DNA of 64,000 bases, from assembly GCF_028471905.1 (NCBI RefSeq), contig NZ_CP116902.1:3369001-3433000 (forward strand), given 5' to 3'. A program made the position numbers and the translations under genes. The first letter of the stretch is position 1; every line of letters begins with the position of its first letter. The stretch comes from Aneurinibacillus uraniidurans (lineage in GTDB: Bacteria > Bacillota > Bacilli > Aneurinibacillales > Aneurinibacillaceae). Below the pieces are notes generated by a model. That model was not told the DNA's origin. It worked only from the letters and a program-made list of their open reading frames with translations, and searched no databases. Shown one piece after another: positions 4,778 to 34,276 of this stretch.

Positions 4778-4779
4778 AC

Positions 4780-9992: not shown

Positions 9993-10547
9993 TTATTCCT
10001 GTACCTTCGCTTTCACACTTTCGATAACCGTACGCCACACGGAAGGGTCGGACGTGATTCTTTCTTTAAATTGGCGATACATATTTTTTTGTTTCTCTTG
10101 AAAATCTGGTGAGTCTGCTGCGGGTAGTTCAGCTCGTAAGGCTGTAACCATCTCCTGCACCTCTGATGATCTTGGACCCCAGACCTTTTTTTCGTTACCA
10201 TCTTGATCGATAAAAATGAAAATTGGAATGGAGCGCGATGTTCCATTCGTTAAGTATTGATCCATAAGCTCCAGATTCTCATCACGAATCAAAAAGCGTA
10301 ATTCTATCTTGCTTGCCTCTGCGATTCGCTGCAGGACTGGAACACATAAAGCCGCATCTCCACACCAATCCGCAGTAAGGACAATTCCTCTCCAGTTACG
10401 CTCGGCAGCATCGTTCCATGTATTTTGATCCTCTTCCGAGAAAACTACTTGTTCGTAGACCCGTGTTAGTTCCTGTTGATTGACTTGCATGTTCATACGA
10501 TACTGTTCAAACGTCATTCCTTTTTCATACCAGAGTTCGAGTGTCAT
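9993..10547 (-). CDS. Thioredoxin-fold family protein
   Basis: This 184-residue cytosolic protein has a thioredoxin-like core (about 50-135): LTADWCGDAALCVPVL, RFLIRDENLELMDQYL and the cis-proline region SRSIPIFIFIDQDG. The usual CxxC is replaced by a WCGD motif (C62) with the next cysteine at C68. This pattern is known in a Bacillales thioredoxin-family group of unclear function. It may act as a one-cysteine reductase, chaperone or bacillithiol-linked protein. I chose ATG 10547 because AAAGGGG lies 8 bases upstream; the first possible start at 10565 lies at the ribosome site itself. There is no co-directional partner nearby. Confidence 0.75.
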   Translation of the reverse strand: MTLELWYEKGMTFEQYRMNMQVNQQELTRVYEQVVFSEEDQNTWNDAAERNWRGIVLTADWCGDAALCVPVLQRIAEASKIELRFLIRDENLELMDQYLTNGTSRSIPIFIFIDQDGNEKKVWGPRSSEVQEMVTALRAELPAADSPDFQEKQKNMYRQFKERITSDPSVWRTVIESVKAKVQE

Positions 10548-10717
10548 AGCTATGACCCCTTTCACGTTTATAATATTGTTCCCCTATATAATATCTATTC
10601 GACAAAACAAGCCAACTATCTTCCATGGTAGAGAAATTCCTCTGGAATAAAGTCGAAATTTTGTTACAATAATTTTACCGATAACTTTATATGCATACGA
10701 AAAAAGGAGGGGAGTTC

Positions 10718-11602
10718 GTGGTTTCCGGATATCTTCTTGTGCTATTATCGGCGGTCGGATTCGGTTTGCTGCCGATCTTTGCGCTGTTTGCCTATGACAG
10801 TGGCGTAAGTGTAACGACGCTGTTATTTTTACGTTTTGCCATTGCAGCGGTTATTTTCTTTGGCTGTGTGTTCTTGTACTCACGCACCTGGAACGTATCA
10901 CGGCGTCAGCTGATATCACTTTTGCTGCTCGGCAGCGTATTTTACACTTTGCAGTCGTCGGCGTATTTTTTAGCTGTAAAGTACATTCCAGCCTCACTAG
11001 CCACGCTTTTATTTTATTTGTACCCTGTATTCGTTGCAATTCTATCGTTCTTCTTTAATAAAGAAACGCTATCAAAGCAGCTGGTCCTATCTGTTCTTAT
11101 CTCGCTTGGCGGCATGGGGCTCGTGCTTGGAACGCCAAATGGAGACATTAACACACTCGGCGTGCTATTCGCGCTCGGCGCGGGGGCTGTGTATTCGCTG
11201 TACATTATTATCGGCAATCGGGTAACATCATCCGTACCTCCAATTGTCACAAGTGCGTATATCGCCCTGTTTGCCTCGACATCGTTTTTTGTATGGGGAA
11301 TCTTCACTGACTCCCTGCATTTTTCATTTAGCAAAACCGGATGGATGGCGATTATCGGTGTCGCACTCTTCTCGACCGTTGTGTCGATGCTCACATTTTT
11401 TGTTGGCATGAACAAAACCGGGCCAACACGTGCTTCTATTGTGAGTATGGTGGAACCGATTGTGACGATCCTGTTCTCTTTTGCCCTGCTGCATGAACAG
11501 ATGGCGGCGCTACAAATGCTCGGTGGAGGGATTGTCCTCACAGGAGCGGTGCTTGTCATTATGGCAAAAGAAAAACAACATGAAAACAGCCAGCTCTCCT
11601 GA
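10718..11602 (+). CDS. EamA/DMT-family transporter
   Basis: A ten-helix membrane protein of the drug/metabolite transporter superfamily with two EamA repeats. The halves meet near residue 145, and the second half contains the characteristic MNKTGPTRASIVSMVEPIVT segment. Members export amino acids, metabolites or toxic compounds; the substrate cannot be inferred here. GTG 10718 is chosen because AGGAGGGG lies directly upstream (10705-10712). The ATG at 10691 precedes that site. It is a single-gene unit ending in its own terminator. Confidence 0.85.
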   Translation: MVSGYLLVLLSAVGFGLLPIFALFAYDSGVSVTTLLFLRFAIAAVIFFGCVFLYSRTWNVSRRQLISLLLLGSVFYTLQSSAYFLAVKYIPASLATLLFYLYPVFVAILSFFFNKETLSKQLVLSVLISLGGMGLVLGTPNGDINTLGVLFALGAGAVYSLYIIIGNRVTSSVPPIVTSAYIALFASTSFFVWGIFTDSLHFSFSKTGWMAIIGVALFSTVVSMLTFFVGMNKTGPTRASIVSMVEPIVTILFSFALLHEQMAALQMLGGGIVLTGAVLVIMAKEKQHENSQLS

Positions 11603-11628
11603 TGGAAGAGCTGGCTGTTCGTCTTTTA
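11584..11628 (+). terminator. Intrinsic terminator of the EamA transporter gene
   Basis: The stem ACAGCCAGCTCT / AGAGCTGGCTGT overlaps the stop codon and is followed by TCGTCTTTT. It also faces the convergent iseA-like gene, whose stop is 8 bases further on. Confidence 0.8.
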
Positions 11629-11635
11629 TCCTGCT

Positions 11636-12229
11636 TTAAAAAAGCTTCTCCGGCGGTGTTGCAATCCGCCAGACTCCCTTTTCTTTTTGTACGGTCACAA
11701 TTTGCACTTCAGGCTTCATCCCGACGTCAGCAGGATACGGAATGATCAATTGATAGTCTCGTACATTTCCCGAACTTCGCAAAAGCTTCGCAGTTGCTTT
11801 ATCGAACTGCAGCAAGTTTCCCCCATCTGCATTTAGCTGTGCTGTTCTGCCTTGATACGTAATGAATCGCTCTTTGATATATGTCTCACTTGCCTGCTTG
11901 GTGAATACTTGTGTCAAGTAAGCACTCAGCTTTTTCGGCGTACCTATATCAGCAGACAGGAACCTGTACTCTTGCGCATTCGGGTCGTTTTTAATTTTGA
12001 AACTTTCGATCTTACCCGTACCTTTGCCGCCACTGCTTGTATAAACATAATGCTTCTGTGCCGCTACAATAAGCGAGATAATATTCTTCTCATTTATGTT
12101 TTTGATTTGTGTCGGATGTACCGTTTGCTTGCTCGCAGCTGCCAAAACCGATTCCGTTCCAAAAGGCGTAACCACCGTCGCAAAGCTGCATGATAAAGCC
12201 AAGCACCCGATTATCATATACTTTTTCAT
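11636..12229 (-). CDS. Secreted protein resembling DL-endopeptidase inhibitor IseA
   Basis: The protein has 197 residues. A signal peptide (MKKYMIIGCLALSC, then a cleavage region around VLAAA, residues 30-33) is followed by a mature domain of about 165 residues. It contains YVYTSSGGKG, YRFLSADIGTPKKLSAYLTQ, ADGGNLLQFDKATAKLL and a C-terminal GVWRI. The order and spacing of these blocks resemble the IseA/YoeB family, which binds and inhibits cell-wall DL-endopeptidases to limit autolysis. The assignment is from memory of the family pattern and is moderate. The start at ATG 12229 has AGGAGGG six bases upstream. It is monocistronic, next to gatB. Confidence 0.55.
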   Translation of the reverse strand: MKKYMIIGCLALSCSFATVVTPFGTESVLAAASKQTVHPTQIKNINEKNIISLIVAAQKHYVYTSSGGKGTGKIESFKIKNDPNAQEYRFLSADIGTPKKLSAYLTQVFTKQASETYIKERFITYQGRTAQLNADGGNLLQFDKATAKLLRSSGNVRDYQLIIPYPADVGMKPEVQIVTVQKEKGVWRIATPPEKLF

Positions 12230-12299
12230 ATTTCACCCTCCTCGCCCTTCAGACGATCCAGGGGAGGAAAATGTTTCTAAAAAATTCCTTTGTAGAAAC

Positions 12300-13733
12300 C
12301 TACAATTTTGCCAGCGCATCACGGAGCAGCTGATTAACTACACCCGGATTTGCTTTTCCTTTGGATGCTTTCATGATCTGACCCACAAGCGCACCCATTG
12401 CTTTTTCCTTACCGGCTTTGAAATCTTCAATCGCCTGCGGATTTGCAGCGAGCACTTCGTCTACCATCTGCTTCAGTGCCCCTTCATCGCTAATCTGCAC
12501 CAGACCTTGTTCTTCGACGATTTTTTCCGGCGACTTGCCTGATTCCATCATCTCTTTGAACACTTTCTTGGCGATCTTGTTGCTGATGGTGCCTTTTTCG
12601 ATCAGCTGTACGAGCGCACCAAGATTATCCGGTGTCAGGCTGATCTGTTTGAATTCCAGGTTATTGGCGTTCAAATATCCGATCGTCTCTCCCATGAGCC
12701 AGTTGGAAACTGCTTTGGCATCCGCACCAGTCTGCACAGTCGCATCAAAGAAGTCAGACATGTCCTTCGACATCGTCAGTACACCCGCATCGTATTCCGG
12801 CAAGCTGTACTGTTCCACATAACGAACTTTACGTGCATCTGGCAGTTCCGGGATCAAGGCACGAATCTCTTCAATCCAGGCCGGATCGATTTTCATCTTG
12901 ATCAGATCTGGGTCCGGGAAGTAGCGATAGTCATGCGCCTCTTCTTTGCTTCGCATGGAGAAGGTACGGCCTGTGTTATCATCCCAGCGGCGTGTTTCTT
13001 GTACAACTTCTTCTCCGTCACGCAGCAATTCTGCCTGACGAATTTCTTCATATTCAAGTCCACGCTGTACGTTGCGGAGTGAGTTCACGTTTTTCAGCTC
13101 GGCCCGTTTACCGAATTGTTCCTGACCTACTGGACGCAGACTGATGTTAGCGTCACAACGGAATGAACCTTCCTCCATTTTCACATCGGAGATTTCACAA
13201 TACTGGACAATTGATTTGAGCTTCTCCAAATACAAGCGTGCTTCTTCCGGTGAACGGAGGTCCGGCTCGGAGACAATCTCGATGAGCGGCGTTCCCACAC
13301 GGTTAAAGTCAACGAGCGATGCGTATCCACTGTCTGCGTGTGTCAGTTTGCCCGCATCTTCTTCTAGCTGGAGACGGGTAATACCGATACGCTTCGGCTT
13401 ACCGTCTACTTCGATTTCAATCCAGCCGTTTACTGCAATTGCTTGATCCAGCTGGGAAATCTGATATGCTTTCGGTGAATCTGGATAGAAGTAGTTTTTA
13501 CGCTCGAAAATACTTTCATCCGCAATCTCACAATTGAGTGCGAGTCCAGCTTTAATTGCGAATTCTACTGCGCGCTTGTTCAGTACCGGCAAAACACCCG
13601 GATGTCCGAGGCAGACCGGGCATGTATGCGTGTTTGGCGGTGCGCCGAATTCTGTTGAACAACCACAGAAAATTTTTGTATTCGTGGACAATTCCACGTG
13701 AACTTCAAGTCCAATGACCGTTTCGAATTCCAT
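12300..13733 (-). CDS. gatB: Asp-tRNA(Asn)/Glu-tRNA(Gln) amidotransferase subunit B
   Basis: The kinase/tRNA-binding subunit of GatCAB activates the mischarged Glu or Asp on tRNA for amidation. The 477 residues begin with the GatB signature [15 protein letters not shown]. The zinc cysteines of the cradle domain are in FCGCSTEFG and [11 protein letters not shown], and [12 protein letters not shown] is present. The C-terminal YqeY-like tail domain ends in [16 protein letters not shown]. Its length is typical. AGGAGG lies 11 bases before ATG 13733. It is the last gene of gatC-gatA-gatB, 18 bp after gatA. Confidence 0.97.
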
Positions 13734-13751
13734 CGTCTGTCTAACCTCCTT

Positions 13752-15212
13752 TTACAGCTCTGGACGAGCTTTGTGATGTTCGGTATTTTGTTCAAACGCG
13801 TGTGCAACGCGGAGTACAGTTGCTTCATCGAATGATTTACCTGCGATTTGCATACCGATTGGCATCCCATTGCTTGCGAATCCGCATGGAACGCTGATTG
13901 CCGGAATACCTGCAAGGTTAACTGGAATTGTACAAATATCTTCCAGATACATCGTCAGCGGATCATTCACTTTCTCGCCAATCTTAAATGCTGTTGTCGG
14001 CGCAGTTGGTCCGATAATCACATCATATTTCGCAAATACCTGGTCAAAGTCGCGCTTAATGAGCGTACGCACTTGCTGAGCTTTCCGGTAGTATGCATCA
14101 TAATAACCTGAGCTTAATGCATACGTACCAAGCATGATGCGACGCTTCACTTCCGGGCCAAGTCCCTGGCTGCGCGTCTCATGGTACATATCAATCAAGT
14201 TCTCGGCACTATCCGCACGTACGCCATAGCGTACGCCGTCATAGCGTGCCAGGTTGGATGACGCTTCTGATGGTGCAAGAATGTAATACGTCGGTACCGC
14301 ATATTCTGTATGCGGCAGTGTTACTTCTTCTACCGTTGCACCCAGGCTCTCCAGCACTTTTAACGCTGCGTTAATTTTCTCGCGCACTTCCGGGTCGATC
14401 CCTTCGCCCATCATTTCTTTCGGTACACCAACACGTAAGCCTTTGATGTCACCTGTCAGTGCCGAGATGTAATCCGGGATTTCTACATCCGCTGATGTGG
14501 AATCAACCGGATCATGTGTAGCAATCGCCTGTAGCACATAAGCCGAGTCTTCAACGTTTTTCGTAATTGGGCCGATCTGATCAAGCGAAGATGCGAACGC
14601 CACCAGACCGTAGCGAGATACGAGACCGTATGTCGGCTTCAGGCCAACTACGCCGCAGTACGCCGCTGGCTGGCGAATGGAACCACCTGTATCCGAGCCA
14701 AGCGAGAAGTATACTTGTCCAGCCGCAACCGATGCAGCCGAACCACCGCTCGAACCACCTGGTACATACGCAAGGTTCCATGGATTGTATGTGTTATGGA
14801 AGCTAGAGTTCTCAGTCGAGCCACCCATCGCGAATTCATCCATGTTCAACTTCCCGATCATGACAGCTTCGGATGCATGCAAACGATCCATCGCAGTAGC
14901 GTTATGAACCGGCTTATAGTTAGCCAGTAATTTACTCGCACATGTAGTGATTACATTTTTTGTTACAATGTTATCTTTAATCCCCGCTGGCAAACCAAAA
15001 AGCAATCCCTGTTCTTCTCCACGGGATTGCTGCTCGTCCAACTGTTTTGCGCGAGCACGCGCATTCTCCTCATCGAGGGAAATAAACGCCTTTACTTTAT
15101 CTTCAGTCTGAGCGATGCGCTCAAACGAAGCGTTTACGAGATCGGAGACAGTAAGTTCTCCTTTTTCCAGTTCGGTATGTATATCTTGCAACCGTTTTTC
15201 AAACAAAGACAC
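13752..15212 (-). CDS. gatA: Asp-tRNA(Asn)/Glu-tRNA(Gln) amidotransferase subunit A
   Basis: The glutamine-hydrolysing subunit of GatCAB provides ammonia to GatB. It is an amidase-signature enzyme of 486 residues. The catalytic Lys is in PAGIKDNIV, and the two serines are in [14 protein letters not shown] and [15 protein letters not shown], followed by GLKPTYG. The start is GTG 15212 with GGGGG about 9 bases upstream. It sits 18 bp after gatC. Confidence 0.97.
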
Positions 15213-15230
15213 GCAGGTTGTCCCCCTTTC

Positions 15231-15521
15231 CTATTCGATAACAGCCGGTACTTTGAATTGTCCATCCTCTTCATCCGGCGCATTGCGCAGAGCGTCTTCA
15301 TGACTCAAAGACGGAACGACGATATCATCGCGCATAACGTTATACACATTAAGCACATGACTAGTTGGCGGTACATCCGCTGTATCGAGTTCGTTTAATT
15401 TTCCTGCAAACTCAAGAATGCTGTTCAGTTGTTCAGTATATTTCACGGCTTCTTCTTCCGTCAGATTCAGACGGGCAAGCTTGGCTACATATTCGACTTC
15501 ATTGCGTGTAATCGCACTCAT
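15231..15521 (-). CDS. gatC: Asp-tRNA(Asn)/Glu-tRNA(Gln) amidotransferase subunit C
   Basis: This 96-residue stabilising subunit wraps around GatA in GatCAB. The signature VEYVAKLARLNLTEEE and the C-terminal LRNAPDEEDGQFKVPAV are clear. ATG 15521 is chosen because AGGAGG lies just upstream; the ATG at 15539 precedes that site. It heads the gatCAB operon, which supplies Gln-tRNA(Gln) and possibly Asn-tRNA(Asn). Confidence 0.96.
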   Translation of the reverse strand: MSAITRNEVEYVAKLARLNLTEEEAVKYTEQLNSILEFAGKLNELDTADVPPTSHVLNVYNVMRDDIVVPSLSHEDALRNAPDEEDGQFKVPAVIE

Positions 15522-15620
15522 GTTTTCCACCTCCTGCATATGATTCTGGCGCTGCTCTCCTCATACGCCAGCATGACTAAATCTACGTAAAATCATACCA
15601 GAGAAGAGTACGCCACGCAA

Positions 15621-18875: not shown

Positions 18876-18962
18876 ATGGCTGCTTGTGGTTGTGGACAAA
18901 CTCAGAACCCGCAGGGACAATGCGATGGTTCACATGCAAATAAAAAAGAAGAAACAAAATAA
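18876..18962 (+). CDS. 28-aa CDGSH-like iron-sulfur microprotein
   Basis: This short ORF reads MAACGCGQTQNPQGQ followed by CDGSHANKKEETK. It starts 9 bases after a near-perfect ribosome site, GGGAGGTGATCC (18862-18873). The CxC...CDGSH arrangement is the ligand set of CDGSH (mitoNEET-type) 2Fe-2S domains, three Cys and one His. The spacing between the Thr and the third Cys is one residue longer than the usual CxCxx(S/T)xxxPxCDGxH. The whole protein is little more than the cluster loop, much shorter than known CDGSH proteins of 60 residues or more. It follows doxX by 29 bp and precedes the operon terminator, so it is very probably translated as the third gene of the dioxygenase operon. It may bind 2Fe-2S as an oligomer, bind zinc, or be a remnant. 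Confidence 0.75.
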   Translation: MAACGCGQTQNPQGQCDGSHANKKEETK

Positions 18963-19142: not shown

Positions 19143-19976
19143 ATGTCTTTTCCTAACATCCCAGATGTTACCGCAAAGATTTCGGTAACAGTGGGGCAAA
19201 CAATCCCTCTGCTTCTTGCGTCGATTGCCTTTGAAGAATTAGCCTTAGCTCATATTATGAATGCAGAAGCGGAGAAAATCCAGTTTGTTTTGGGAACACT
19301 AGAACCAAGTAGACCACTCGCTTCCACTTCCGATACTCCTACAGTTACCATCTCGAATATCCTGGATATTAACCGAAGCGTGAATCAAACTCTTCAAACT
19401 GTCATTAAGAAAGAAATGCTGCTGCAATTCAAACTGGAAAATATTCTTGAAAATATATCTGTACTCGTGCCAACTACTCCACCTACTCCGCCGTCCGAAA
19501 CTTGCCAATGTTCAGTATCCTTCAACGTTCCAGCCAACTCACCATTTACTGAAACACTTGACGGCAACCCATCTGTGTCCGGAACCGGACAGCTTGGGAA
19601 AAATCCTGGTTCAAGTGCAAGAGTAATGATCTGCCAACAATGTGACCCAACAGAAGCGGATCTATTCTTCTTTGAATTTACACCAAACTCAGGTGCCGCC
19701 CCTATCAACTTCGAGGCAACTTCCTTTACTCCAACAGCTGCAGGCACGTTAGGCACATGTTGTTCAGACAACGGTGTGCTCCGTTTCACGATTTCAGGTA
19801 CGGGATTGAGAACAGAGAATGGAATTGAAACAGCTGTGGGCTTTACGCTTGTTCTAGAGGGTAAGAGCGTAACACTTACATTAAATGGAAACGAAGTGTT
19901 TGCGGGCACTGTACCAGGACAGGGCAACATACACATCAATTCTTGCGGGGGATTCAATCCTCCTTCATGCAGCTAG
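19143..19976 (+). CDS. Probable spore-surface protein: paralogous helical domain plus Cys-rich beta domain
   Basis: The protein has 277 residues. The first 105 or so residues are a helical domain containing LLLASIAFEELALAHIMNAE, AEKIQFVLGTL and VIKKEMLLQFKLENILE. Two more genes in this locus carry it (20098-20421 and 21016-21342). A proline-rich linker (VPTTPPTPPSE) leads to a 160-residue beta-rich domain with eight cysteines in pairs (CQC, CQQC, CC). I recall this helical domain in front of collagen-like or beta domains in exosporium and spore-surface proteins of Bacillales, but its function is not established. There is no signal peptide, as expected for a protein made in the mother cell. 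AGGAGG lies 6 bases before ATG 19143. Adjacent glycosyltransferases may glycosylate it. Confidence 0.6.
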   Translation: MSFPNIPDVTAKISVTVGQTIPLLLASIAFEELALAHIMNAEAEKIQFVLGTLEPSRPLASTSDTPTVTISNILDINRSVNQTLQTVIKKEMLLQFKLENILENISVLVPTTPPTPPSETCQCSVSFNVPANSPFTETLDGNPSVSGTGQLGKNPGSSARVMICQQCDPTEADLFFFEFTPNSGAAPINFEATSFTPTAAGTLGTCCSDNGVLRFTISGTGLRTENGIETAVGFTLVLEGKSVTLTLNGNEVFAGTVPGQGNIHINSCGGFNPPSCS

Positions 19977-20001
19977 TAGTTAGCTAACTCTCACCAGCTT
20001 C

Positions 20002-20039
20002 AGCCCTTTTCCATGATTTTTATGGAAAAGGGCTTTTTG
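20002..20039 (+). terminator. Intrinsic terminator after the 277-aa spore-surface-like gene
   Basis: A perfect 13-bp stem (20002-20014 with 20022-20034) is followed by TTTTTGT. It separates this gene from the next two. Confidence 0.9.
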
Positions 20040-20040
20040 T

Positions 20041-20068
20041 AACACCTAAAAATGCGGGGCATATATTA
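20041..20068 (+). promoter_or_regulatory. Sigma-K-like promoter for the 107-aa gene
   Basis: The -10 element GCATATATTA (20059-20068) fits gCATAnnnTA exactly, and AACA (20041-20044) lies 16 bases upstream as the -35. Predicted transcription starts about 20076, ahead of the ribosome site AGGAAGGTGA and the ATG at 20098. This suggests late mother-cell expression. Confidence 0.55.
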
Positions 20069-20097
20069 GCCATATATAATAGGAAGGTGAAGCCCGC

Positions 20098-20421
20098 ATG
20101 AGTATGCCTCATATACCTGAAGGAAAATTCAGACCTTCAGGCAAGGAAGTCGTCATTGATCTATTAGAGTCGATTGCTCTTGAAGAAATTGCCCTGTCCC
20201 ATCTGATGAATGCAGAAGCAGAAAAAATACAGGCTTTTGTCGGGAAACATCTTAACTTCCCAACCTGTCCATCTACCAGGGATATTATTAAATTCAATCA
20301 AAACGTTACGCTTCTATTGGAGACGATTGTGATGAAGGAATGGCTGCTGTTACGAAAGCTAGAAAACATACTGGAGTTAAAGGATCATCAAGTAGAATGC
20401 TTCATTGAATTTGAGGAATAA
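20098..20421 (+). CDS. Stand-alone paralogue of the spore-surface helical domain
   Basis: This 107-residue protein consists only of the helical domain (LLESIALEEIALSHLMNAEA, EKIQAF, ETIVMKEWLLLRKLENILE) shared with the genes at 19143 and 21016. The N-terminus differs (MSMPHIPEGKFRPSG). It is the most diverged of the three copies. It is preceded by a good sigma-K-like promoter and followed 21 bp later by a 177-aa gene, probably co-transcribed. The role may be structural in the spore coat or exosporium; this is inference from promoter and context. Confidence 0.6.
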   Translation: MSMPHIPEGKFRPSGKEVVIDLLESIALEEIALSHLMNAEAEKIQAFVGKHLNFPTCPSTRDIIKFNQNVTLLLETIVMKEWLLLRKLENILELKDHQVECFIEFEE

Positions 20422-20442
20422 CATCTTACAGGGAGAATAAAG

Positions 20443-20976
20443 ATGAATAATTTGTCATTTAGCCAGGCTCTCTCGCTATCAGAAGATACTTTACGCAAAA
20501 TGCTGGAATCAGCCACATTACTGCTTAAAGGATTACGGAAAAGAAGCATTGACTCTCCCGCGTTAGAAAAAACAGAGGAATACCAATCGCGCTATTCGAT
20601 TTTTTTATTTATCAGGAACCTGATTGATCTACAGCGGATCTTGCTGCGTAAGAAAGTGTTATACTCAAATTATTTACAAAATCACAATATCGATCCGGCT
20701 CTTCATATGGATAGCCAGACCAATTTTCGACACGAGACCGAACAACTCGCCACTCTCATTCAGTCCGACTGCTTTTTTATGGCACACGTAAGAGAAAGTG
20801 CTCACTTGCTCCTGTACGATTTAAAAAATTACTATAAGGAAAAAGTGTTTTTATCAAGCCTAACGATGAAGTCCGCTCCTTCAGTGCCCCCATGGCTTGG
20901 TGAAAAAAACAAAAGCAGCAGCTTCCGCCAGCGAAAAAAGAAAATCATAAAACGAGAGGAAAGAAGTGAACGGTAG
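20443..20976 (+). CDS. Hypothetical 177-aa protein in the spore-surface locus
   Basis: I recognise no family. It is mostly helical, without signal peptide or membrane helix. The N-terminal half is mixed (SFSQALSLSEDTLRKMLESA). The C-terminal tail is very basic, from about residue 155, with clusters such as RQRKKKIIKREE. It sits 21 bp after the 107-aa helical-domain gene with GGGAG upstream of ATG 20443, so it belongs to the same sigma-K-like transcription unit. A basic tail is common in coat proteins that bind acidic polymers. The stop codon lies within the bidirectional terminator. Confidence 0.6.
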   Translation: MNNLSFSQALSLSEDTLRKMLESATLLLKGLRKRSIDSPALEKTEEYQSRYSIFLFIRNLIDLQRILLRKKVLYSNYLQNHNIDPALHMDSQTNFRHETEQLATLIQSDCFFMAHVRESAHLLLYDLKNYYKEKVFLSSLTMKSAPSVPPWLGEKNKSSSFRQRKKKIIKREERSER

Positions 20977-20999
20977 CTACGCTACTATTCACTTCTTTT
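20963..20999 (+). terminator. Bidirectional terminator between convergent spore-locus genes
   Basis: GAAGTGAA-GGTAGC and its complement form a long hairpin with one mismatch, followed on the plus strand by TTTTGCT. The convergent gene at 21016-21342 ends 17 bases beyond it and can use the same hairpin. Confidence 0.8.
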
Positions 21000-21015
21000 G
21001 CTATGAAAAATACTC

Positions 21016-21342
21016 TTAACACTTATGACGCGAGCGAATCAGCTCCAGTACGTTTTCAAACTTGAATTGCAGAAGCATTTCCTTTTTAATGACATCTTGA
21101 AGGGTCTGGCGTACACTTTTATTGACCTCTAATAAATCACGCAAAGTAATAACAGAAGAATGAAGCGTTGTCTTACATGGTGTTAACGTTCCTAAAACAA
21201 ACTGGATTTTCTCTGCTTCCGCATTAATAATATGAGCTAAGGCTAATTCCTCAAAAGCAATCGATGCAAGAAGCAGTGAAACAGTCTCACCCGGTGTTAC
21301 GGAGATCACGGGAGTAACATTCGGGATATTAGGAAAAGACAT
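21016..21342 (-). CDS. Second stand-alone paralogue of the spore-surface helical domain
   Basis: The 108-residue protein is nearly identical over its first 55 residues to the gene at 19143 (shared MSFPNIP, LLLASIAFEELALAHI, NAEAEKIQFVLGTL). It also shares the second block KKEMLLQFK-ENVLE. It lacks the linker and the Cys-rich beta domain. AGGAGG precedes ATG 21342. The close similarity in opposite orientation suggests a recent inverted duplication. It may form mixed assemblies with the longer paralogue. Confidence 0.6.
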   Translation of the reverse strand: MSFPNIPNVTPVISVTPGETVSLLLASIAFEELALAHIINAEAEKIQFVLGTLTPCKTTLHSSVITLRDLLEVNKSVRQTLQDVIKKEMLLQFKFENVLELIRSRHKC

Positions 21343-21409
21343 TGCATTTCCTCCTTTGGGTTAATAGTAAATGATATTGATCATGGACCATATCGGGAAC
21401 GGCGCATAC

Positions 21410-22603
21410 CTAACTTTGCGATTGAATAGCTTGAATAAGCGTATTCACATCAATATCCTCAGGAACTACATCCTGAAGCGAAATCTTTTCTCCTTGAAGG
21501 AGATCCGCTAGCGATTCAATAGCCGGAGTATATTCGGGTGAGAGCTGAAATGAACGAATATAGGAAAGAGCAGCTTCCTTCGTTTGACCAAGCTTTTCAT
21601 AACAGTGACCTTTGCAATGCCAGGCCTGGAAACTTCCAAGCCCTTTCATGATTAGATAATTGAAATTGTCCTCTCCTAAATCAATACATCGTGCAAACGC
21701 CTCAAGCGCTTCTTCGTACATTTCTTTCCCGTACAAAATCACACCCTGATAAAATTGTAAATCTACATAATCGGGATACAGTATTAACGCCCGCTTGATT
21801 CCCTCCAATGCGCCATCCCAGCTTCCTAGCGTAAGTAAAATAGAATATTTTAGTTTGTAAAGTAGAGAAGGCGGCGTAAACCCGGCCATCAAAAAGTCAA
21901 CGACTGCTAGATTCACATGTTCAAATGCCTTTTCATACTGCTTGGCGCGATGGTATTCTGCTGCAATGTGATAATGAATCCACGGGCTTCTTTCTTCCTC
22001 TTCCAACTCTTTTTTAAGCATTTCTAGATTGCGCGTGAACTTGTTCTTGTTTTCTACGACATCATCGAGATATCCGTAGTGATGAAATTTTATCGGTAAC
22101 GAGCCAATCCTTTTTTGATCTTCCGGAGAAGACAATACTTTGTCAATGTTGAGCCATTCATGAATTTTGTTGACGAATGCAAACCCTTTGTTATTTCGGA
22201 AGAGCCGGAAATGCCCGATGCTTAATGCTTTATCTTCGTCCACCTTGTTACCGACATAATTAATCAACTGAATCTGCAGCACATCATACTCGTGAAAATA
22301 CCGGGAATCCCGCAGTTTGTCCCGGTCATTTGCATCCACTTCTTCATCAGCATCCAGCCAGAGAATCCAATCTCCTGTCGCACGAGCTAACCCATAATTT
22401 CGTGCGTCTGCAAAGCTCTCATTCCAAGCAAATGAATGTACGTGTGCACCAAACGATTGGCAGATTTCTACTGTTCGATCCGTTGAGCCTGTATCGACAA
22501 TAATGATTTCATCTACAATCCCCTTAACACTCGATAGACAACGGCCTATAGAAGCTTCCTCATCTTTGACAATCATACATAAGGACAGCCGCAAATCATT
22601 CAT
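21410..22603 (-). CDS. GT2 glycosyltransferase with TPR region
   Basis: The protein has 397 residues. The N-terminal GT-A domain has LSLCMIVKDEEASIGRCL, the nucleotide-binding DEIIIVDTGSTD and the metal-binding LDADEEVD. The C-terminal half (about 200-380) carries TPR-like helical repeats (HYHIAAEYHRAKQYEKAFEH, YGKEMYEEALEAFARCIDLG). Such GT2-TPR proteins transfer sugars to protein or glycan substrates at the cell or spore surface. ATG 22603 is chosen because AAGGAGG lies upstream (13 bases, long) and the GT domain begins directly after it. The first ATG at 22645 has only a weak site and lies at or before the predicted transcription start. It is divergent from the large glycosyltransferase. 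Confidence 0.82.
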   Translation of the reverse strand: MNDLRLSLCMIVKDEEASIGRCLSSVKGIVDEIIIVDTGSTDRTVEICQSFGAHVHSFAWNESFADARNYGLARATGDWILWLDADEEVDANDRDKLRDSRYFHEYDVLQIQLINYVGNKVDEDKALSIGHFRLFRNNKGFAFVNKIHEWLNIDKVLSSPEDQKRIGSLPIKFHHYGYLDDVVENKNKFTRNLEMLKKELEEEERSPWIHYHIAAEYHRAKQYEKAFEHVNLAVVDFLMAGFTPPSLLYKLKYSILLTLGSWDGALEGIKRALILYPDYVDLQFYQGVILYGKEMYEEALEAFARCIDLGEDNFNYLIMKGLGSFQAWHCKGHCYEKLGQTKEAALSYIRSFQLSPEYTPAIESLADLLQGEKISLQDVVPEDIDVNTLIQAIQSQS

Positions 22604-22649
22604 GGGATCATGAACACCTCCTTGAATACGTAACGCATTTCCCATGCTT

Positions 22650-22679
22650 TATCCTATTAAGGCGGGTAGGAAGAGGTGT
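22650..22679 (-). promoter_or_regulatory. Sigma-K-like promoter for the GT2-TPR gene
   Basis: On the minus strand AATAGGATA (22658-22650) matches CATAnnnTA with one change, with AC at 22677-22676 exactly 17 bases upstream. Its predicted start point is about 22642, which would exclude the first ATG of the long frame. Confidence 0.4.
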
Positions 22680-22692
22680 TATGAAAAACAGG

Positions 22693-22721
22693 CACGATTT
22701 ACGCTGCCATGCCATAAGATA
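22693..22721 (+). promoter_or_regulatory. Sigma-K-like promoter for the tandem glycosyltransferase gene
   Basis: CATAAGATA (22713-22721) matches CATAnnnTA, with AC at 22694-22695 exactly 17 bases upstream. The start point is expected about 22728-22730, so the ATG at 22732 would be essentially leaderless, and the TTG at 22771 has the proper ribosome site. Confidence 0.45.
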
Positions 22722-22770
22722 ACGAGGAAATATGGATGGAGATAAACTGCTTACCAAAGAGGTGTTCGAT

Positions 22771-25284
22771 TTGAAAACACAACACAGCATCATTTGGGAA
22801 GGACCCTGGGATACTGGCAGCAGCTTTGCACTTGTCAATCAAAACATATACAAGCATCTTTCTACCAATCAACAATTTAAGCTGCATGTTCGCTCTCCTA
22901 CTGAATTACTAGAAACATGTCCTCCTGTAGCTGATATTACTGTTCGCCATCAATGGCCGCCTGATTTCACGCCACCATCAAGCGAAAAATGGGTTTGTAT
23001 GCAGCCCTGGGAGTACGGTGCTCTTCCACTAGACTGGTATATTCCAATGAAATATTGGGTAGATGAAATCTGGGTGAATAGCACGTACACCAAGGAGTGT
23101 TATGTCCGATCTGGGCTTCCGAAAAGTAAAGTGAAGGTCATTCCGCTCGGTGTAGATGATCGTACCTTTCACTATGATGTTGATACAATGAACCTAGAAG
23201 GAAAAAAATCTTTTGCTTTTCTATTTGTTGGAGGAACCATTGCCCGTAAAGGAATTGATCTCCTGTTACATGCTTACCTTGAGGAGTTTACGGCACATGA
23301 AGATGTTTGTCTGGTGATTAAAGATGTGGGGAACGATTCTTTCTACAAAGGGATGACTTTAGAGGAGACAATTGAAGACGTACGGCGCAATCCCCATCAT
23401 CCACATATTTTGTATATAAAAGAGCACTTAACTAGCAATGAGCTGGCCAGTCTGTACAAAACATGTGATTGTCTTGTGCACCCGTATCACGGAGAAGGCT
23501 TTGGCCTTCCTATGATTGAGGCGATGGCCTGCGGAACCCCCATCATCGCACCATGTCTTGGACCAAGCAGTGATTTTAGTGATGAGAACACCGCCTTTCT
23601 CTTGCCGTGCCAGGAAGAAAAGCTGTCCCCAAAAAAGATAGGGCATTTAGAAACCGTTGATTTTCCGTGGTGGTTTACGATGGATGAAACGGACGTAAGA
23701 AAAGCAATGAGATTTGCTTACGAAAATCGGGCACTCGTGAAAGAAAAAGGACGCAACGCCAGTCGTAAAATTTTATCTTCTTTTACCTGGAAACAAACCG
23801 AAGCGATGGTTTCACATCATCTGCACCAATTATGTATCACCCCTTCTTCACAGAAAGCAACCCATGAGGAAATTGTGGAACAGGAACTGAACCAGGGGAT
23901 GACTTTGTTCCATAAGGAGCTGTATGCAGAGGCCCTGGTAAAATTTCTGGGCATTCTTGCTGTATATCCTAACTCCATCGAGGCACGATATAATGCCGGA
24001 ATCATCCTTGTCAAACAAAAAGAGTTCGCCTTTGCACTCCAGCATTTCCTGTACCTATCTGGCATAATGGCGGAACTGGAACCTGATTTTCAATCTACTG
24101 TACAGAATGTCATCAAAACGTGTTATCTGCATATAAGAAACTCCCCACAAACCGTTACCAAACCGTATAAAATTCTCTGGCAAACTCCTTTATTCAATGC
24201 CAGTGGTTATGCCGAAGAACAGAGACATTTTTTAGATGGGCTGCGACCGTTTCCATTAAAAATTAAGCTTTTTCCACTTGATGCTCCAAACGAAGCCAAT
24301 CATTCATCGTCTGAACTGGATCATTACTTCTCTACGCTTCAGAAACAAACCGTTGGAAAACCATTGATTCATTATCAAGCGTCACCTGCTAATTTTTTCA
24401 CGACACCCCTTGCGCCTATCGCGATCGGCCGAACAATGTTTGAAACGGATTCGGTACCTGGAGATTGGATTCCTATGTTGAAGGAAATGACGGAAATCTG
24501 GGTTCCTTCTGTGTTTAATTATGAAACTTTTTGCGCCGCTGGCATTCCAAGTGAAAAAATTTTCATTCTCCCTGAACCGTTAGATGATAACTTGTATACA
24601 CCAACAGACGTACGGCCCTATCCGTTACCAGATTGTAAAACGTTTAAATTCCTCTCCGTTTTTGATTGGAGTATCCGAAAGGGATGGGATCTTCTGCTTG
24701 AAGCTTATTTTACGGAATTCAGCGCACAGGACGATGTTTCTCTTATCTTAAAGGTGTCCAAAATCAACGAACCAAACGCGACTCCTTTTACTAAAATCGC
24801 GGAAGTAGCCAAAAGACTCGGGGTTAGCAAACTACCACATATTCATGTGATTGAATCTCGTCTGACTGAAAAAGAAATGATTCAATTATACGGATCAGTG
24901 GATGCATTTGTGTTGCCTTCTCGGGGAGAAGGATGGGGACGCCCCTACATGGAAGCTATGGCTATGAATTTACCGACAATCGGAACGAGATGGAGCGGGC
25001 AGCTAGACTTCATGAATGATGAAAACAGCTATTTAATTGATGTGGAACGGCTCACTTCTATTGAAAAGGATAGCATGCCCCCTCATTTCCACGGTCATCA
25101 ATGGGCACTTCCAAGTGTCGAGCATTTACGGCACTTACTGCGCTTTATCTATGAGAATCCGCAGCAAGCAAAACAGAAGGGAATAAAAGCGAGGCAGACG
25201 TTGTTTCCTCAGTTTTCAAAACAAGCAATTGCCACCAAAATCTATGAAAGAATTGATCAACTGGTTACACGTTACAATCAATAA
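22771..25284 (+). CDS. Tandem GT4-TPR-GT4 glycosyltransferase
   Basis: The 837-residue cytosolic enzyme has two complete GT-B (GT4-like) glycosyltransferase modules. The first (about 1-350) has HGEGFGLPMIEAMACG near residue 243. A linker (about 370-430) has TPR-like repeats (GMTLFHKELYAEALVKFLGI, YNAGIILVKQKEFAFALQHF). The second module (about 465-837) has SRGEGWGRPYMEAMAM near residue 718. Both keep the E-x7-E donor-binding motif, so both are probably active and could add two sugars in succession. I prefer TTG 22771, six bases after AGAGGTG. The ATG at 22732 (850 aa) has poor spacing. Neighbours suggest spore-surface glycosylation. Confidence 0.82.
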   Translation: MKTQHSIIWEGPWDTGSSFALVNQNIYKHLSTNQQFKLHVRSPTELLETCPPVADITVRHQWPPDFTPPSSEKWVCMQPWEYGALPLDWYIPMKYWVDEIWVNSTYTKECYVRSGLPKSKVKVIPLGVDDRTFHYDVDTMNLEGKKSFAFLFVGGTIARKGIDLLLHAYLEEFTAHEDVCLVIKDVGNDSFYKGMTLEETIEDVRRNPHHPHILYIKEHLTSNELASLYKTCDCLVHPYHGEGFGLPMIEAMACGTPIIAPCLGPSSDFSDENTAFLLPCQEEKLSPKKIGHLETVDFPWWFTMDETDVRKAMRFAYENRALVKEKGRNASRKILSSFTWKQTEAMVSHHLHQLCITPSSQKATHEEIVEQELNQGMTLFHKELYAEALVKFLGILAVYPNSIEARYNAGIILVKQKEFAFALQHFLYLSGIMAELEPDFQSTVQNVIKTCYLHIRNSPQTVTKPYKILWQTPLFNASGYAEEQRHFLDGLRPFPLKIKLFPLDAPNEANHSSSELDHYFSTLQKQTVGKPLIHYQASPANFFTTPLAPIAIGRTMFETDSVPGDWIPMLKEMTEIWVPSVFNYETFCAAGIPSEKIFILPEPLDDNLYTPTDVRPYPLPDCKTFKFLSVFDWSIRKGWDLLLEAYFTEFSAQDDVSLILKVSKINEPNATPFTKIAEVAKRLGVSKLPHIHVIESRLTEKEMIQLYGSVDAFVLPSRGEGWGRPYMEAMAMNLPTIGTRWSGQLDFMNDENSYLIDVERLTSIEKDSMPPHFHGHQWALPSVEHLRHLLRFIYENPQQAKQKGIKARQTLFPQFSKQAIATKIYERIDQLVTRYNQ

Positions 25285-30521: not shown

Positions 30522-31670
30522 TTACTGAATCGTAGGCCTAAGTCGCTGCTTTCCAACGTGCCTAATCTTGACTTGTGCTTGAACAGAAATCGAGTCTTTG
30601 CGTAACGGTATCACGCCATTTTTCGCGACTTTTTTCCAAGCGTCCACATTTTTTTTGTACAGGGTATTCGACAAGCGATATACATCCGCATCAAGCTCCA
30701 GACCCTTGAGGTACGTTTGTTGTACCTCTTTTTCGATCACTTTCTCTGCTTCCCGACACAAAAATTCTTCACTTATTTTCTGGTCGATTTCATTGACGTA
30801 ACCGGAAACCTTGATCTTGATCGTAAAATACACATCCTGATTTTTTACTTCTGGCTGAATGGTAACACTAGGGCTAAGCAGAAGAACATAAGCTGCTCGC
30901 CTCCCCTTTTTTTTCAGCAGAAGTCCATTCCGCTTCGATTCTTCTGTCATCCACCGCAGTCCCTTTACATCATTACTCGAAATGAAACCTTGCAGCTTAC
31001 GAGGTGTAATGATCGCTACACCGTCTGCCTGAATGGCAGCTCGTTTCTTTTCGTTAGATTGCCAAGTATTCTTCGCTATACTGACAGTTGGTATGACCGC
31101 GTTATACCCTGGTTCATCCAGCTGCATGATTAATTCCCTCATATTCATCGGCTTAAGAATAGAGCTCTGGTCGTAACTACCTCTAGGCTCTGCAACTCTG
31201 GTAAGGGCTGTGGAGATGCCAAGCATTGGAGACGAAAGTAACAACTGTTTGACATCTCCTTTCGTACTGAACATCCAGATCCGATACCGTGTTTCCCGAT
31301 AACGATCAAACAGATCAATCGTATCGTTTAGCGCCTTATTTTTAAGCGCTTCTTCTGTAAACACAATAAAACTCAAATGTCCCCAGAATACCTTTCGTTG
31401 TATAGATTTGTATAAAGCAAACAAGGCCTCGTCCATACTTTTGCCAGAAGCACGGCCCACTTCCATTTGCATTTTCTCCCCCCCGCCTACTTCGGACTTT
31501 GCTAACTTTCCCAAGTTAACCATTTGTAAGTAAATGATATAGCGACCCTTTTTATAATCCACTCCTAAACCATGTATATAAACCATCTGCTCCGGTTCAT
31601 TCGAATCCAGGCATCCAGCTAATAAAGGAAAAAGAATAACGATAATGGCCATAAACTTCCAATGTCTCAT
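30522..31670 (-). CDS. Ger(x)C family spore germination lipoprotein
   Basis: The C subunit of a nutrient germinant receptor is lipid-anchored on the outer face of the spore inner membrane. The lipobox LLAGC puts the lipidated cysteine at C20. The family pattern continues with EPEQMVYIHGLGVDY, a long mid-domain and a C-terminal FLCREAEKVIEKEVQQTYLKG. It has 382 residues, normal for the family. Its ATG overlaps the gerA stop by one base, so it is translationally coupled. Confidence 0.92.
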   Translation of the reverse strand: MRHWKFMAIIVILFPLLAGCLDSNEPEQMVYIHGLGVDYKKGRYIIYLQMVNLGKLAKSEVGGGEKMQMEVGRASGKSMDEALFALYKSIQRKVFWGHLSFIVFTEEALKNKALNDTIDLFDRYRETRYRIWMFSTKGDVKQLLLSSPMLGISTALTRVAEPRGSYDQSSILKPMNMRELIMQLDEPGYNAVIPTVSIAKNTWQSNEKKRAAIQADGVAIITPRKLQGFISSNDVKGLRWMTEESKRNGLLLKKKGRRAAYVLLLSPSVTIQPEVKNQDVYFTIKIKVSGYVNEIDQKISEEFLCREAEKVIEKEVQQTYLKGLELDADVYRLSNTLYKKNVDAWKKVAKNGVIPLRKDSISVQAQVKIRHVGKQRLRPTIQ

Positions 31671-33103
31671 TATGACTTTCTCCTTCTCATTCGGGTCGGA
31701 TCTCGTGGATCGAGTGTACGCGGACGACTAAAAAACTTTTGTGCAGGCAAGCGAAAAATTGCTTTTAGGATATTCATTGTATTCAAACGAGTGGCAAGTT
31801 CAAGATACGGCACACCAAATGTTCGAATGTTCGCTACATAAAGAAAGATAAAGTAAACGGAAAGGAAATAACCGAAAAAGCCTAATGCGGCAGCAAAGGA
31901 AAGCACAAAAAATCGTAATAACGTGATCGTTCCAACGAGCGATTGGTTGGCAAGAGTAAAAGTGGCGACTGTAGAGGCACCGATAATGACCAGCATCGCA
32001 GGACTGGTAAGCCCGGCGCGAATCGCAGCATCTCCAATAATAAGTCCACCCACTACGCTCAACGTCTGACCGATAGCAAGCGGAAGTCTCATCCCAGCCT
32101 CCCTGAATAACTCAAACAAAATAAGCATCAGAACTGCCTCTAATCCACTAGGAAGCGGAACTCCTCTTCGTGCTTCCACAACGGTCGCCAGTAAAGTAAA
32201 CGGAAGCTGATTTTGATGAAAAGCGGTCAGTGCGACCCAAAATCCAGGTAAAAACGTGGCCGCTGCCAAACCAGCGATCCTCATAATTCTTTCAAATGAA
32301 TTGTAAGCAAACGTGTACTCCGTATCCTCCCCTGTTTTAAGCAGCAGAAACAGATTCGTCGGTATAATCATTACATATGACACACCATCCACCAATAAAA
32401 GAAAGCGGCCGCTAAGCAGCGATTGAACAGCGAAATCAGGACGCCCCGTATACTGATATTTCGGAAAAAAAGGATACGGATTTTCGGTAATTAATTCGTG
32501 TAATTGATTGCCGCTATAGATGCCATCAATGTCGATCGCATGAAGCTTGTCCTGAATTTGCTGCAAGATTTCTTTGCTGGCAATGTCGTCCATATATAGA
32601 ATGCCGACTTTTGTTCTTGTACGCCTGCCAATTTCAACCTGTTCATAACAGAGTGTATCCGTACGTAAGCGCTTACGAATTAAAGCTACATTTATTGCAA
32701 TATCCTCAATGAAGTCATCCCGCGGTCCTTTAATGGAGACTTCTGTCTTCGTCTCCTCAGGATTCCTTTGCGGAACATGTGAAATATCTGTAGAAAATAC
32801 CCATTTTTCTCGTTTAAATACAAGCAATAACTTTCCGGAGAACACATCAGCTGTTGCCTGGTCCTTGTTGTTAATCGATTGCAGGTCCGGTACATGTAGC
32901 TCCTTTTGCACAATGTCTGCTGTAAGCTCTTGATTTTGTCTGAAAAACACGTCCAATCGTTCGAAAATCAAGGTATTGAGTATCTCGCCATTGATCATTG
33001 CCGGACAGTACACAAGGAGAACGGGATTATCCAGGAAGAATACATCTCGAAGTTGAACATCGTAGCATTTGGCAAATAAGCCCCGAATTTCTTGCTCATC
33101 CAT
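31670..33103 (-). CDS. GerA-family spore germination protein (A subunit)
   Basis: The 477-residue membrane subunit probably forms an ion channel. The N-terminal soluble domain has TEVSIKGPRDDFIEDI and NVALIRKRLR. Four or more membrane helices follow, with LPLAIGQTLSVVGGLIIGDA and GVPYLELATRLN. The protein responds with the B and C subunits to nutrients, triggering germination. It overlaps gerB by 8 bp and gerC by 1 bp. The start is ATG 33103 with GGAGGG upstream. Confidence 0.93.
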   Translation of the reverse strand: MDEQEIRGLFAKCYDVQLRDVFFLDNPVLLVYCPAMINGEILNTLIFERLDVFFRQNQELTADIVQKELHVPDLQSINNKDQATADVFSGKLLLVFKREKWVFSTDISHVPQRNPEETKTEVSIKGPRDDFIEDIAINVALIRKRLRTDTLCYEQVEIGRRTRTKVGILYMDDIASKEILQQIQDKLHAIDIDGIYSGNQLHELITENPYPFFPKYQYTGRPDFAVQSLLSGRFLLLVDGVSYVMIIPTNLFLLLKTGEDTEYTFAYNSFERIMRIAGLAAATFLPGFWVALTAFHQNQLPFTLLATVVEARRGVPLPSGLEAVLMLILFELFREAGMRLPLAIGQTLSVVGGLIIGDAAIRAGLTSPAMLVIIGASTVATFTLANQSLVGTITLLRFFVLSFAAALGFFGYFLSVYFIFLYVANIRTFGVPYLELATRLNTMNILKAIFRLPAQKFFSRPRTLDPRDPTRMRRRKS

Positions 33104-34193
33104 TTGGTTGTCTCCCTCCTTTATTCCGGGTCATAATCACAATACCTCCAAGCAAAACAGACAAGCCAACGACAAAAAGCAAAAGGGATGGCAACAAAAT
33201 GGATTTCAAAAATTCATAAGACTGCATATCACTAACTGGAAATAATGTCAGTCCCATAAGAACAGCAAAAACGGGAAGAAGAATCCACCATACTTTTCTT
33301 TTATCTTTTAGATTCAGGATCTCAAGCATGATAAATAGAAATAACGAAACCCGAATAAATGCACCTGACATCCACTGGTAAATGGATAGATAATCAACAT
33401 GTTCGACGAAACGTCCAAGTTGGACAAGCCCCCATTCTTCATAAGCAGGATATCGCTGTCTGGACGCTTCTACTGGACCGAATTCGGCAATCGCCCCAAT
33501 CAATGGACCTATCGTTAATCCGGTTAGGAGCAGTGCATTCACAAGAAAGTGGCGGTAGCGAATCGGTGCATCAATTTTTTGCTGGAGAAATAAAAACATA
33601 ATAAGTTCAATCATTCCTGATGCAGCATATATAGACGCTTTGAAAACAGGAGAATATCCTTTTTCTAATAGCGGCAAAATCAACGAGTAGTCTTTGAATT
33701 GAAGATTGGCCGTTGCCACAAAAAAGCCAAGAATAATGATGAAAAATAAAAGAAATACATTAATAATCGACACCGTTCGCAGTCCTGATGCTGCCGTGAG
33801 TACACAAAGCAAGATAAACAGAAAAGCTAAAACCCATACAGGGGTAGCTGGTAAAAAAACAATGTTTGCCCATATAATCGTTTCTCGTAACGTAGAAGCT
33901 GCGAGAATGACTACATACAAACAAATGCTGATGACGATCACAATCGAGAAAAACTTCCCGATATGCTGCTGTAACCAGAGGAATAGATGCTGCTGCCTCG
34001 TTTTTTTATGTATATAAACGAACAAAAAGCCCCAAAGTAGCATGAAGCCAAATGAAATCAGGACCGACATCCATGAGTCTCTTCCTGCAGCTTGGATTAA
34101 CGGCGGAATGACAATGACATGATTGTTAAAACCAACTGCCGTCATTCCTAATAATGTGAGCTGAAATACTGTGATGGATTCGGAATTCTTCAT
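33096..34193 (-). CDS. GerB-family spore germination permease (B subunit)
   Basis: The 365-residue, about ten-helix protein of the APC-like spore germination permease family is the subunit that binds the nutrient. The N-terminal segment SITVFQLTLLGMTAVGFNN and the central region fit the family. ATG 34193 is chosen because AAGGAGGAGGG lies just upstream; the ATG at 34238 precedes that site. It is the first gene here, so the operon order is B-A-C rather than the commoner A-B-C. Confidence 0.9.
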   Translation of the reverse strand: MKNSESITVFQLTLLGMTAVGFNNHVIVIPPLIQAAGRDSWMSVLISFGFMLLWGFLFVYIHKKTRQQHLFLWLQQHIGKFFSIVIVISICLYVVILAASTLRETIIWANIVFLPATPVWVLAFLFILLCVLTAASGLRTVSIINVFLLFFIIILGFFVATANLQFKDYSLILPLLEKGYSPVFKASIYAASGMIELIMFLFLQQKIDAPIRYRHFLVNALLLTGLTIGPLIGAIAEFGPVEASRQRYPAYEEWGLVQLGRFVEHVDYLSIYQWMSGAFIRVSLFLFIMLEILNLKDKRKVWWILLPVFAVLMGLTLFPVSDMQSYEFLKSILLPSLLLFVVGLSVLLGGIVIMTRNKGGRQPNG

Positions 34194-34276
34194 AATCCCT
34201 CCTCCTTCTGACAATGATGTAGTTGTATTATTTCCCATTACATTTTTTTTATGTTTCGGTTACTTCCCCCATTAAA

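Follow-up and report, generated by a model that had tools for sequence, protein, structure and literature searches.

The 64,000-nucleotide (nt) window of the Aneurinibacillus uraniidurans genome analysed in this study (contig NZ_CP116902.1, positions 3,369,001 to 3,433,000 of the forward strand; window coordinates are used below) carries, between positions 19,143 and 25,284, what is by homology an A-type endospore-appendage (A-ENA) locus, in which paralogous subunit genes lie beside two predicted glycosyltransferase genes. We consider it likely that this is a spore-fibre locus made during sporulation and equipped with its own glycosylation enzymes, working along the lines proposed in the last section. 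The homology of the subunits to a solved spore fibre, the linkage of one glycosyltransferase type to A-ENA genes, the co-occurrence of A-ENA with spoIVA and the enrichment of a promoter motif upstream of A-ENA genes are all observed. These four results also support an earlier note on this DNA, which had read the locus as a set of spore-surface scaffold proteins with their glycosylation enzymes; the spore-surface family stands, and the generic label of scaffold gives way, by homology, to that of fibre subunits.

Subunit genes and their domain family

Proteins of 277, 107 and 108 amino acids (aa) encoded at the locus have a domain of about 105 residues in common, with 37 columns of the alignment invariant in all three. 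Identity to the 108-aa copy over this domain is 69% for the 277-aa protein and 44% for the 107-aa protein, and the core S-IA-EE-AL-H--NAEAEKIQ, by which the earlier note had recognised three paralogous helical-domain proteins, is indeed invariant across them. A search of the complete A. uraniidurans genome (3.85 Mb, one contig) with the 108-aa query returned these three genes only (E < 0.01). In the PDB sequence set the domain had a single distinct clear match, 9ihh_A (101 aa), deposited as 'Ex vivo spore-silk A-ENA fibers', which was found with the 277-aa (E 5.2e-18), 107-aa (8.8e-12) and 108-aa (5.1e-19) proteins. The profile search that the earlier note had suggested for the helical domain also led to 9ihh, at E 2.2e-24 over positions 1-107, in an alignment that starts at residue 1 and reaches the end of helix 2. 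The locus is assigned to A-ENA because of this match. Searches of Pfam, NCBIfam and PHROGs gave no family name for the domain (weak sub-threshold rows were obtained for the 108-aa and 277-aa proteins), and a literature search of limited reach found no description of A-ENA. Although A-ENA is in the PDB, the window copies thus find no model in these profile libraries, and at least 220 such genes are presumably annotated as hypothetical or collagen-like.

The AlphaFold2 model of the 277-aa protein, built with 10 homologues (of which L046 is a cut copy of L037, and L039 has a degenerate helical part), predicts an unstructured stretch at residues 1-16, helices at 17-50 and 70-107, and strands from 124 to 266. 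All eight cysteines fall within the C-terminal domain, which is predicted to be all-beta with a predicted local distance difference test score (pLDDT) mostly above 80; the fusion of one paralogue to a cysteine-rich beta domain, as claimed in the earlier note, is thereby confirmed. The same fusion also occurs in loci of Neobacillus, Hazenella, Bacillus sp., Mesobacillus and Shimazuella. Searches with the model by Foldseek (best E 8e-3) and VIA-align (best Z 7.8) yielded nothing better than middling rows of beta barrels and helical hairpins, and for this reason no fold name is given to the beta domain. The arrangement of an N-terminal arm followed by a two-helix hairpin is present in the 277-aa model and presumably in 9ihh; the arm motif occurs in 171 of 236 distinct family proteins. 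No signal peptide was apparent in the window subunits by eye, without a dedicated predictor, which suggests that they are made in the cytosol of the mother cell. Hydrophobicity in the 108-aa and 277-aa proteins is highest from residue 21 onwards, in a stretch that corresponds to the first helix, where EE and H are conserved. The sequences of the three A-ENA proteins of the window contain no Gly-X-Y (GXY) repeats and so do not fit a BclA-type collagen-like exosporium protein.

A further gene, encoding 177 aa and missed by the earlier note, starts 22 nt after the 107-aa gene and probably encodes a divergent fourth A-ENA paralogue that is the operon partner of the 107-aa protein. A non-iterated hidden Markov model (HMM) of four 177-aa homologues matched the 107-aa gene of the locus (E 4e-4) as well as an A-ENA protein (E 8.8e-8). 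Profile-profile comparison by hhalign gave E 0.0023 (probability 12.5), compared to E 0.5-0.9 for five column-shuffled controls. Gene order points the same way: the regular expression for 'type-b' proteins such as the 107-aa paralogue finds 13 genes in 13 loci, one per locus, window included, and a same-strand open reading frame (ORF) of 100-260 aa adjoins the type-b gene in nine of these 13 cases, six of the nine (window included) being in or matching the 177-aa HMM. The AlphaFold2 model of the 177-aa protein shows a helical hairpin (residues 4-37 and 43-81) followed by further helices, and Foldseek matched it to generic helical bundles; the N-terminal arm is absent from the sequence. The absence of 9ihh from the structure-search rows listed for the 277-aa and 177-aa models is evidence neither way. 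An iterated jackhmmer search with the 177-aa protein was set aside in favour of the non-iterated HMM, because later rounds can drift and the targets entered in bulk only in the last rounds.

In a family scan of 84,980 species genomes, 220 relatives were found, and the best 80 of these correspond to the 77 distinct loci analysed (L034-L110; L111-L119 were left out), which are not independent, as some overlap on one contig and four are near-identical. All 77 belong to the Bacillota by their record titles. At least two A-ENA genes are present in 66 of the 77 loci, and 55 contain a copy with a tail of at least 45 residues. The 233 distinct A-ENA proteins comprise 143 single-domain proteins, 34 with collagen-like GXY tails (counted by a regular expression that includes a few Gly-Ser repeats), 24 with Ser/Thr-rich tails and 32 with other tails; some tails resemble beta-propeller repeats by eye, and cysteine-rich domains like that of the window are also found among them. 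The variety of tails suggests that A-ENA works as a module heading many surface proteins.

Sporulation link and glycosyltransferases

The association of A-ENA with spore formation was examined by comparing A-ENA, SpoIVA and GT2-TPR occurrences and gene distances by hand from the result lists. In a class sample of 299 genomes, 44 carried A-ENA and 208 carried SpoIVA; all 44 A-ENA genomes were SpoIVA-positive and none of the 91 spoIVA-negative genomes carried A-ENA (Fisher p 2.4e-8, in a test that ignores kinship). The A. uraniidurans genome itself has SpoIVA. Two of the fetched A-ENA loci come from Oscillibacter (L069, L091), a genus described as sporulating rarely or not at all.

The motif CATANNNTA is a -10 element common to sigma-E and sigma-K promoters. 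Of 235 A-ENA genes, 57 have an exact copy in the 150 nt upstream, bunched at 20-70 nt from the start. The opposite strand gives 18 of 235, and 20 dinucleotide shuffles average 18.05 (highest 29), while other ORFs have it in 66 of 957 cases. The motif is thus about threefold enriched (p 9.5e-13 against other ORFs). The 64-kb window contains 24 occurrences on both strands, or 0.019 per 100 nt per strand, and exact copies stand at both places where the earlier note had seen sigma-K-like promoters, namely before the 107-aa gene and between the glycosyltransferases (Table 1). A 'sigma-K promoter' before every gene of the locus was rejected, since these two are the only exact -10 matches and the 100 nt upstream of the other locus genes hold only one-mismatch versions of CATANNNTA.

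The GT2-TPR enzyme named in the earlier note is clear: a PF00535 domain (2e-24) is followed by TPR_2 repeats (1.4e-15), with the DXD motif present as LDADEE at residue 98. Its most likely start is M15 (22603), because many homologues begin there and the ribosome-binding site AAGGAGGTG precedes it. The second enzyme, which had been described as GT4-TPR-GT4, does contain two GT4 domains, each with an EX7E motif (at 255 and 733), but the TPR region between them is not significant (TPR_1 E 0.21). Here the TTG at codon 14 (22771) is the most likely start, given that the ribosome-binding site AAAGAGGTG precedes it and that alignments with first-half homologues start at residues 15-22. The solved protein nearest to the GT2-TPR is GmaR (22ao, E 1.3e-37), followed at about 6e-16 to 9e-16 by SunS (7e-16) and one similar enzyme; SunS is also its best NCBIfam match (9.8e-22), at 77.4 bits against a family cut-off of 350, which is not reached. 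In the part of PMC9638930 available, GmaR is described as transferring N-acetylglucosamine (GlcNAc) to flagellin. In that of PMC7157674, SgtA of C. difficile, a glycosyltransferase with four TPRs whose gene lies immediately upstream of bclA3, puts beta-O-GlcNAc on threonines of BclA3 collagen-repeat peptides. By analogy, the GT2-TPR would be one of the enzymes of this kind that are known to modify spore and flagellar proteins with sugars, and it may transfer GlcNAc to Ser/Thr of its neighbour.

When the class sample of 299 genomes was searched regardless of A-ENA, a close relative of the GT2-TPR (E<=1e-80) was found in 23 genomes, which were 23 of the 44 A-ENA-positive and none of the 255 A-ENA-negative ones (p 1.4e-22). 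Twenty-five of the 26 copies with E<=1e-90 lie no more than 3.1 kb from an A-ENA gene, and the 26th (in G673) is 9.9 kb away, while none of seven weaker copies (E 1e-75 to 6e-51) lies within 10 kb of A-ENA on the same contig. Among the fetched loci, 44 of 77 contain a GT2-TPR copy with at least 40% identity over 300 residues, and the distance to A-ENA in those loci and the window has a median of 140 nt (53 genes; 35 at up to 300 nt, 40 at up to 1 kb). Matches to the GT4-GT4 enzyme were found in five of the 44 A-ENA genomes, at their A-ENA loci, with the halves encoded as separate genes in one of them (G377). Collagen-like tails occur in 18 of the 44 loci with a GT2-TPR versus four of the 33 without, and Ser/Thr-rich tails in five of 44 versus 12 of 33, kinship being uncontrolled in both comparisons.

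Table 1. Features of the A-ENA locus, in window coordinates
Feature	Position	Strand	Basis
277-aa protein: A-ENA domain (residues 1-107), Pro/Thr linker and Cys-rich beta domain (~122-277)	19143..19976	+	9ihh match, AlphaFold2, fused homologues
Hairpin and T-run, likely terminator of the 277-aa gene	20002..20038	+	sequence
CATATATTA, exact sigma-E/K-type -10, 38 nt before the 107-aa gene	20060..20068	+	motif match
107-aa 'type-b' A-ENA paralogue (MSMPxIP..RPS, KEWLL)	20098..20421	+	9ihh match, regular expression
177-aa probable divergent A-ENA relative without N-terminal arm	20443..20976	+	HMM, hhalign, gene order, helical model
108-aa single-domain A-ENA subunit	21016..21342	-	9ihh match
GT2-TPR protein glycosyltransferase (putative)	21410..22603, ORF open to 22645	-	PF00535, TPR, DXD at 98, GmaR homology, linkage
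CATAAGATA, exact sigma-E/K-type -10, 58 nt before the proposed GT4-GT4 TTG start	22713..22721	+	motif match
Tandem GT4-GT4 glycosyltransferase (predicted), weak TPR-like middle	22771..25284, ORF open from 22732	+	PF13692/PF00534 in two stretches

Genomic setting and mobility

The G+C content of the locus is 0.423, compared to 0.466 in the rest of the window and 0.420 in its lowest 6-kb stretch. Only two of the seven genomes of the genus (G000, G005) have A-ENA, which suggests that the locus was gained or lost as a unit. Elsewhere in the family, a 15.6-kb stretch (L105, L108, L109 and L110, positions ~1-15615) is shared at 96-99.8% identity by Robertmurraya (two species), Ureibacillus and Bacillus sp., and it is also found at 100% identity over 3.3 kb in G015 (L020, L029). 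This stretch contains phage replication genes (HNH, SNF2 helicase, VapE, antirepressor), two A-ENA genes and a gene for an 810-aa ice-binding-like adhesive protein, and the identity breaks off within a uracil-5-methyltransferase gene (PF05958), in its 3' portion. It represents either a mobile element with spore-fibre genes or mixed assemblies. Near-identical DNA across genera beside phage genes makes transfer of A-ENA by prophage-like elements plausible at those four loci. Additionally, seven predicted viral contigs in IMG/VR (L124-L130) encode A-ENA proteins, a search of INPHARED phage records with the A-ENA protein of L109 gave no match, and the 108-aa protein of the window matched one Bacillus velezensis plasmid record, where it is annotated as collagen-like.

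Other features of the window and genome were recorded. An operon for a germinant receptor of the GerA type (GerA, permease, GerAC) lies at 30525-34238 (-), about 5 kb from the locus. At 18876-18959 (+) an ORF of 28 codons, preceded by a good ribosome-binding site and without a Pfam match at E 0.01, encodes MAACGCGQTQNPQGQCDGSHANKKEETK, which we take to resemble a bare CDGSH iron-sulphur motif. Window positions 1-2372 are low in G+C (0.348 over 1-2000) and encode an immunoglobulin-like repeat protein running off the left edge; the 3' end of the gene at 2373-3785 (-) adjoins this region, and that gene, presumably a 23S rRNA uracil methyltransferase from its appearance by eye, is perhaps of the same kind as the one at the end of the 15.6-kb element. 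Elsewhere in the genome a 329-aa collagen-like protein is encoded (L120, region of G000:C1:1830719-1831009), near a long array that reads as Val-Cys-Val-Ser repeats (L120:2535-3158).

Proposed working, alternatives and known systems

In the proposed mechanism, the mother cell would make several alpha-helical-hairpin subunits during sporulation, and these would polymerise on the surface of the spore as 'spore-silk'-type fibres. Homology and the logic of the fusion suggest that the 108-aa protein is the bulk fibre subunit and that the 277-aa protein co-assembles with it, showing its beta domain along the fibre or at the tip. The 107-aa and 177-aa pair may serve as a minor base or cap complex, which is a guess by analogy with the F-ENA anchors and tips in the available part of PMC11952670. 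In the mother-cell cytosol, the TPR part of the GT2-TPR would recognise the subunits, the enzyme would place the first sugar (probably GlcNAc) onto Ser/Thr, and the GT4-GT4 would extend the glycan; these sugar steps rest on gene linkage and on GmaR and SgtA. We infer in this way both fibre formation and glycosylation for the window's own proteins, along with their spore location, the role of each paralogue, the sugar and its acceptor.

Several observations weigh against this reading. In a phylum sample of 398 genomes, A-ENA was found in 34, SpoIVA in 340 and both in 32, and the association was not significant (p 0.099), the two A-ENA genomes without a SpoIVA match (G130 and G331) both being drafts; the earlier note had named occurrence of the domain in non-spore-formers as evidence against it, and these two are to be set beside the absence of such cases from the class sample. 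Kinship is ignored in all Fisher tests of A-ENA co-occurrence. The motif enrichment upstream of the GT2-TPR genes themselves is weak (10/50 versus 5/50 on the opposite strand), and the assignment of the 177-aa protein is itself weak, given its hhalign probability and the absence of 9ihh among the 50 Foldseek matches listed. In addition, 21 of the 44 A-ENA genomes have no close GT2-TPR (E<=1e-80), so that glycosylation by this enzyme is not obligatory, and the sequences of the window subunits contain no long Ser/Thr or collagen stalk as an acceptor.

The last two points would also fit an A-ENA fibre locus whose glycosyltransferases both modify other targets, for instance a polysaccharide of the exosporium or crust, or collagen-like proteins from genes outside the locus, and the genome does contain collagen-like stretches elsewhere (C1:1830719-1831009 and two short ones). 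We regard this alternative as unlikely, since all 23 class genomes with a close GT2-TPR are A-ENA genomes, nearly all copies lie close to an A-ENA gene, and GmaR and SgtA, in the parts of their sources available, are protein glycosyltransferases. It is highly improbable that the GT2-TPR is a SunS-type S-glycosyltransferase acting on cysteines of the beta domain: SunS is its best NCBIfam match and one of its next solved relatives after GmaR, and the 277-aa protein offers eight cysteines, but the score is far under the cut-off, GmaR is much closer, and blastp homologues of the beta domain occur in six of the 77 loci (with a few more distant ones besides) compared to 45 with a GT2-TPR. A vegetative or biofilm surface-fibre locus merely present in spore-formers, which might be argued from the presence of A-ENA in only 44 of the 208 SpoIVA genomes of the class sample and from the phylum-level test, is very unlikely in view of the depositors' description of the solved fibre as 'ex vivo spore-silk', the 0 of 91 spoIVA-negative class genomes with A-ENA, the enrichment of the mother-cell-type -10 motif and the lack of a signal peptide apparent by eye.

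A spore-fibre locus with its own glycosylation enzymes thus remains the preferred reading. Such a locus ties a spore fibre, decorated subunits and a specific glycosyltransferase family together in a form that can be tested by deletion. It bears on the function of ENA fibres in adhesion and clustering, that is, on how spores stick to surfaces and to one another, and it offers a linked candidate enzyme-substrate pair for producing glycosylated protein fibres. More tentatively, the A-ENA domain may be a general self-assembling 'plug' across spore-forming Bacillota that mounts varied outer parts (collagen-like stalks, Ser/Thr-rich stalks, beta domains and beta-propeller-like repeats) on a single type of spore fibre. 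The members of a large branch, which has its own GmaR/SgtA-like GT2-TPR, could then be the first endospore-appendage systems with a dedicated, linked protein glycosyltransferase, and some copies may travel between genera on prophage-like elements; a limited literature search found no endospore-appendage system with a dedicated, genetically linked protein glycosyltransferase.

Compared to known systems, the locus has spore appendages in common with S-ENA (Ena1A/B/C, PF13157); PF13157 had no match in the window proteins, nor in the A. uraniidurans genome, where the controls of the genome search also gave no match. F-ENA fibres, as far as the available part of PMC11952670 describes them, consist of small subunits and the accessory proteins F-Anchor, which carries the subunit domain, and F-BclA, near which a putative glycosyltransferase gene is noted. 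They resemble the window system as small-subunit spore fibres with dedicated accessory proteins and differ in that F-ENA subunits are DUF4183 proteins, whereas the window domain is alpha-helical and its accessory domain is not collagen. PF13799 (DUF4183) had no match in the window proteins or in the genome, in a genome search whose control matched in one genome, below the cut-off. GmaR (22ao), in the available part of PMC9638930, has the same order of glycosyltransferase and TPR, is the closest solved GT2 relative and likewise acts on filament subunits, but it has an extra anti-repressor part and its substrate is flagellin. The SgtA-BclA3 pair of C. difficile, according to the corresponding part of PMC7157674, also places a glycosyltransferase-plus-TPR enzyme beside a spore-surface protein gene; its substrate is a collagen-like exosporium protein, and the likeness is one of description, not of SgtA sequence. 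The closest comparison is with the A-ENA fibre of 9ihh itself, to which homology covers almost all of the domain, with both the N-terminal MxxPxIP arm and the IKKEMLLQFKLE helix. Relative to that fibre, the locus differs in its three to four paralogues, of which one is extended by a beta domain at the C-terminus, and in the two adjoining glycosyltransferases.

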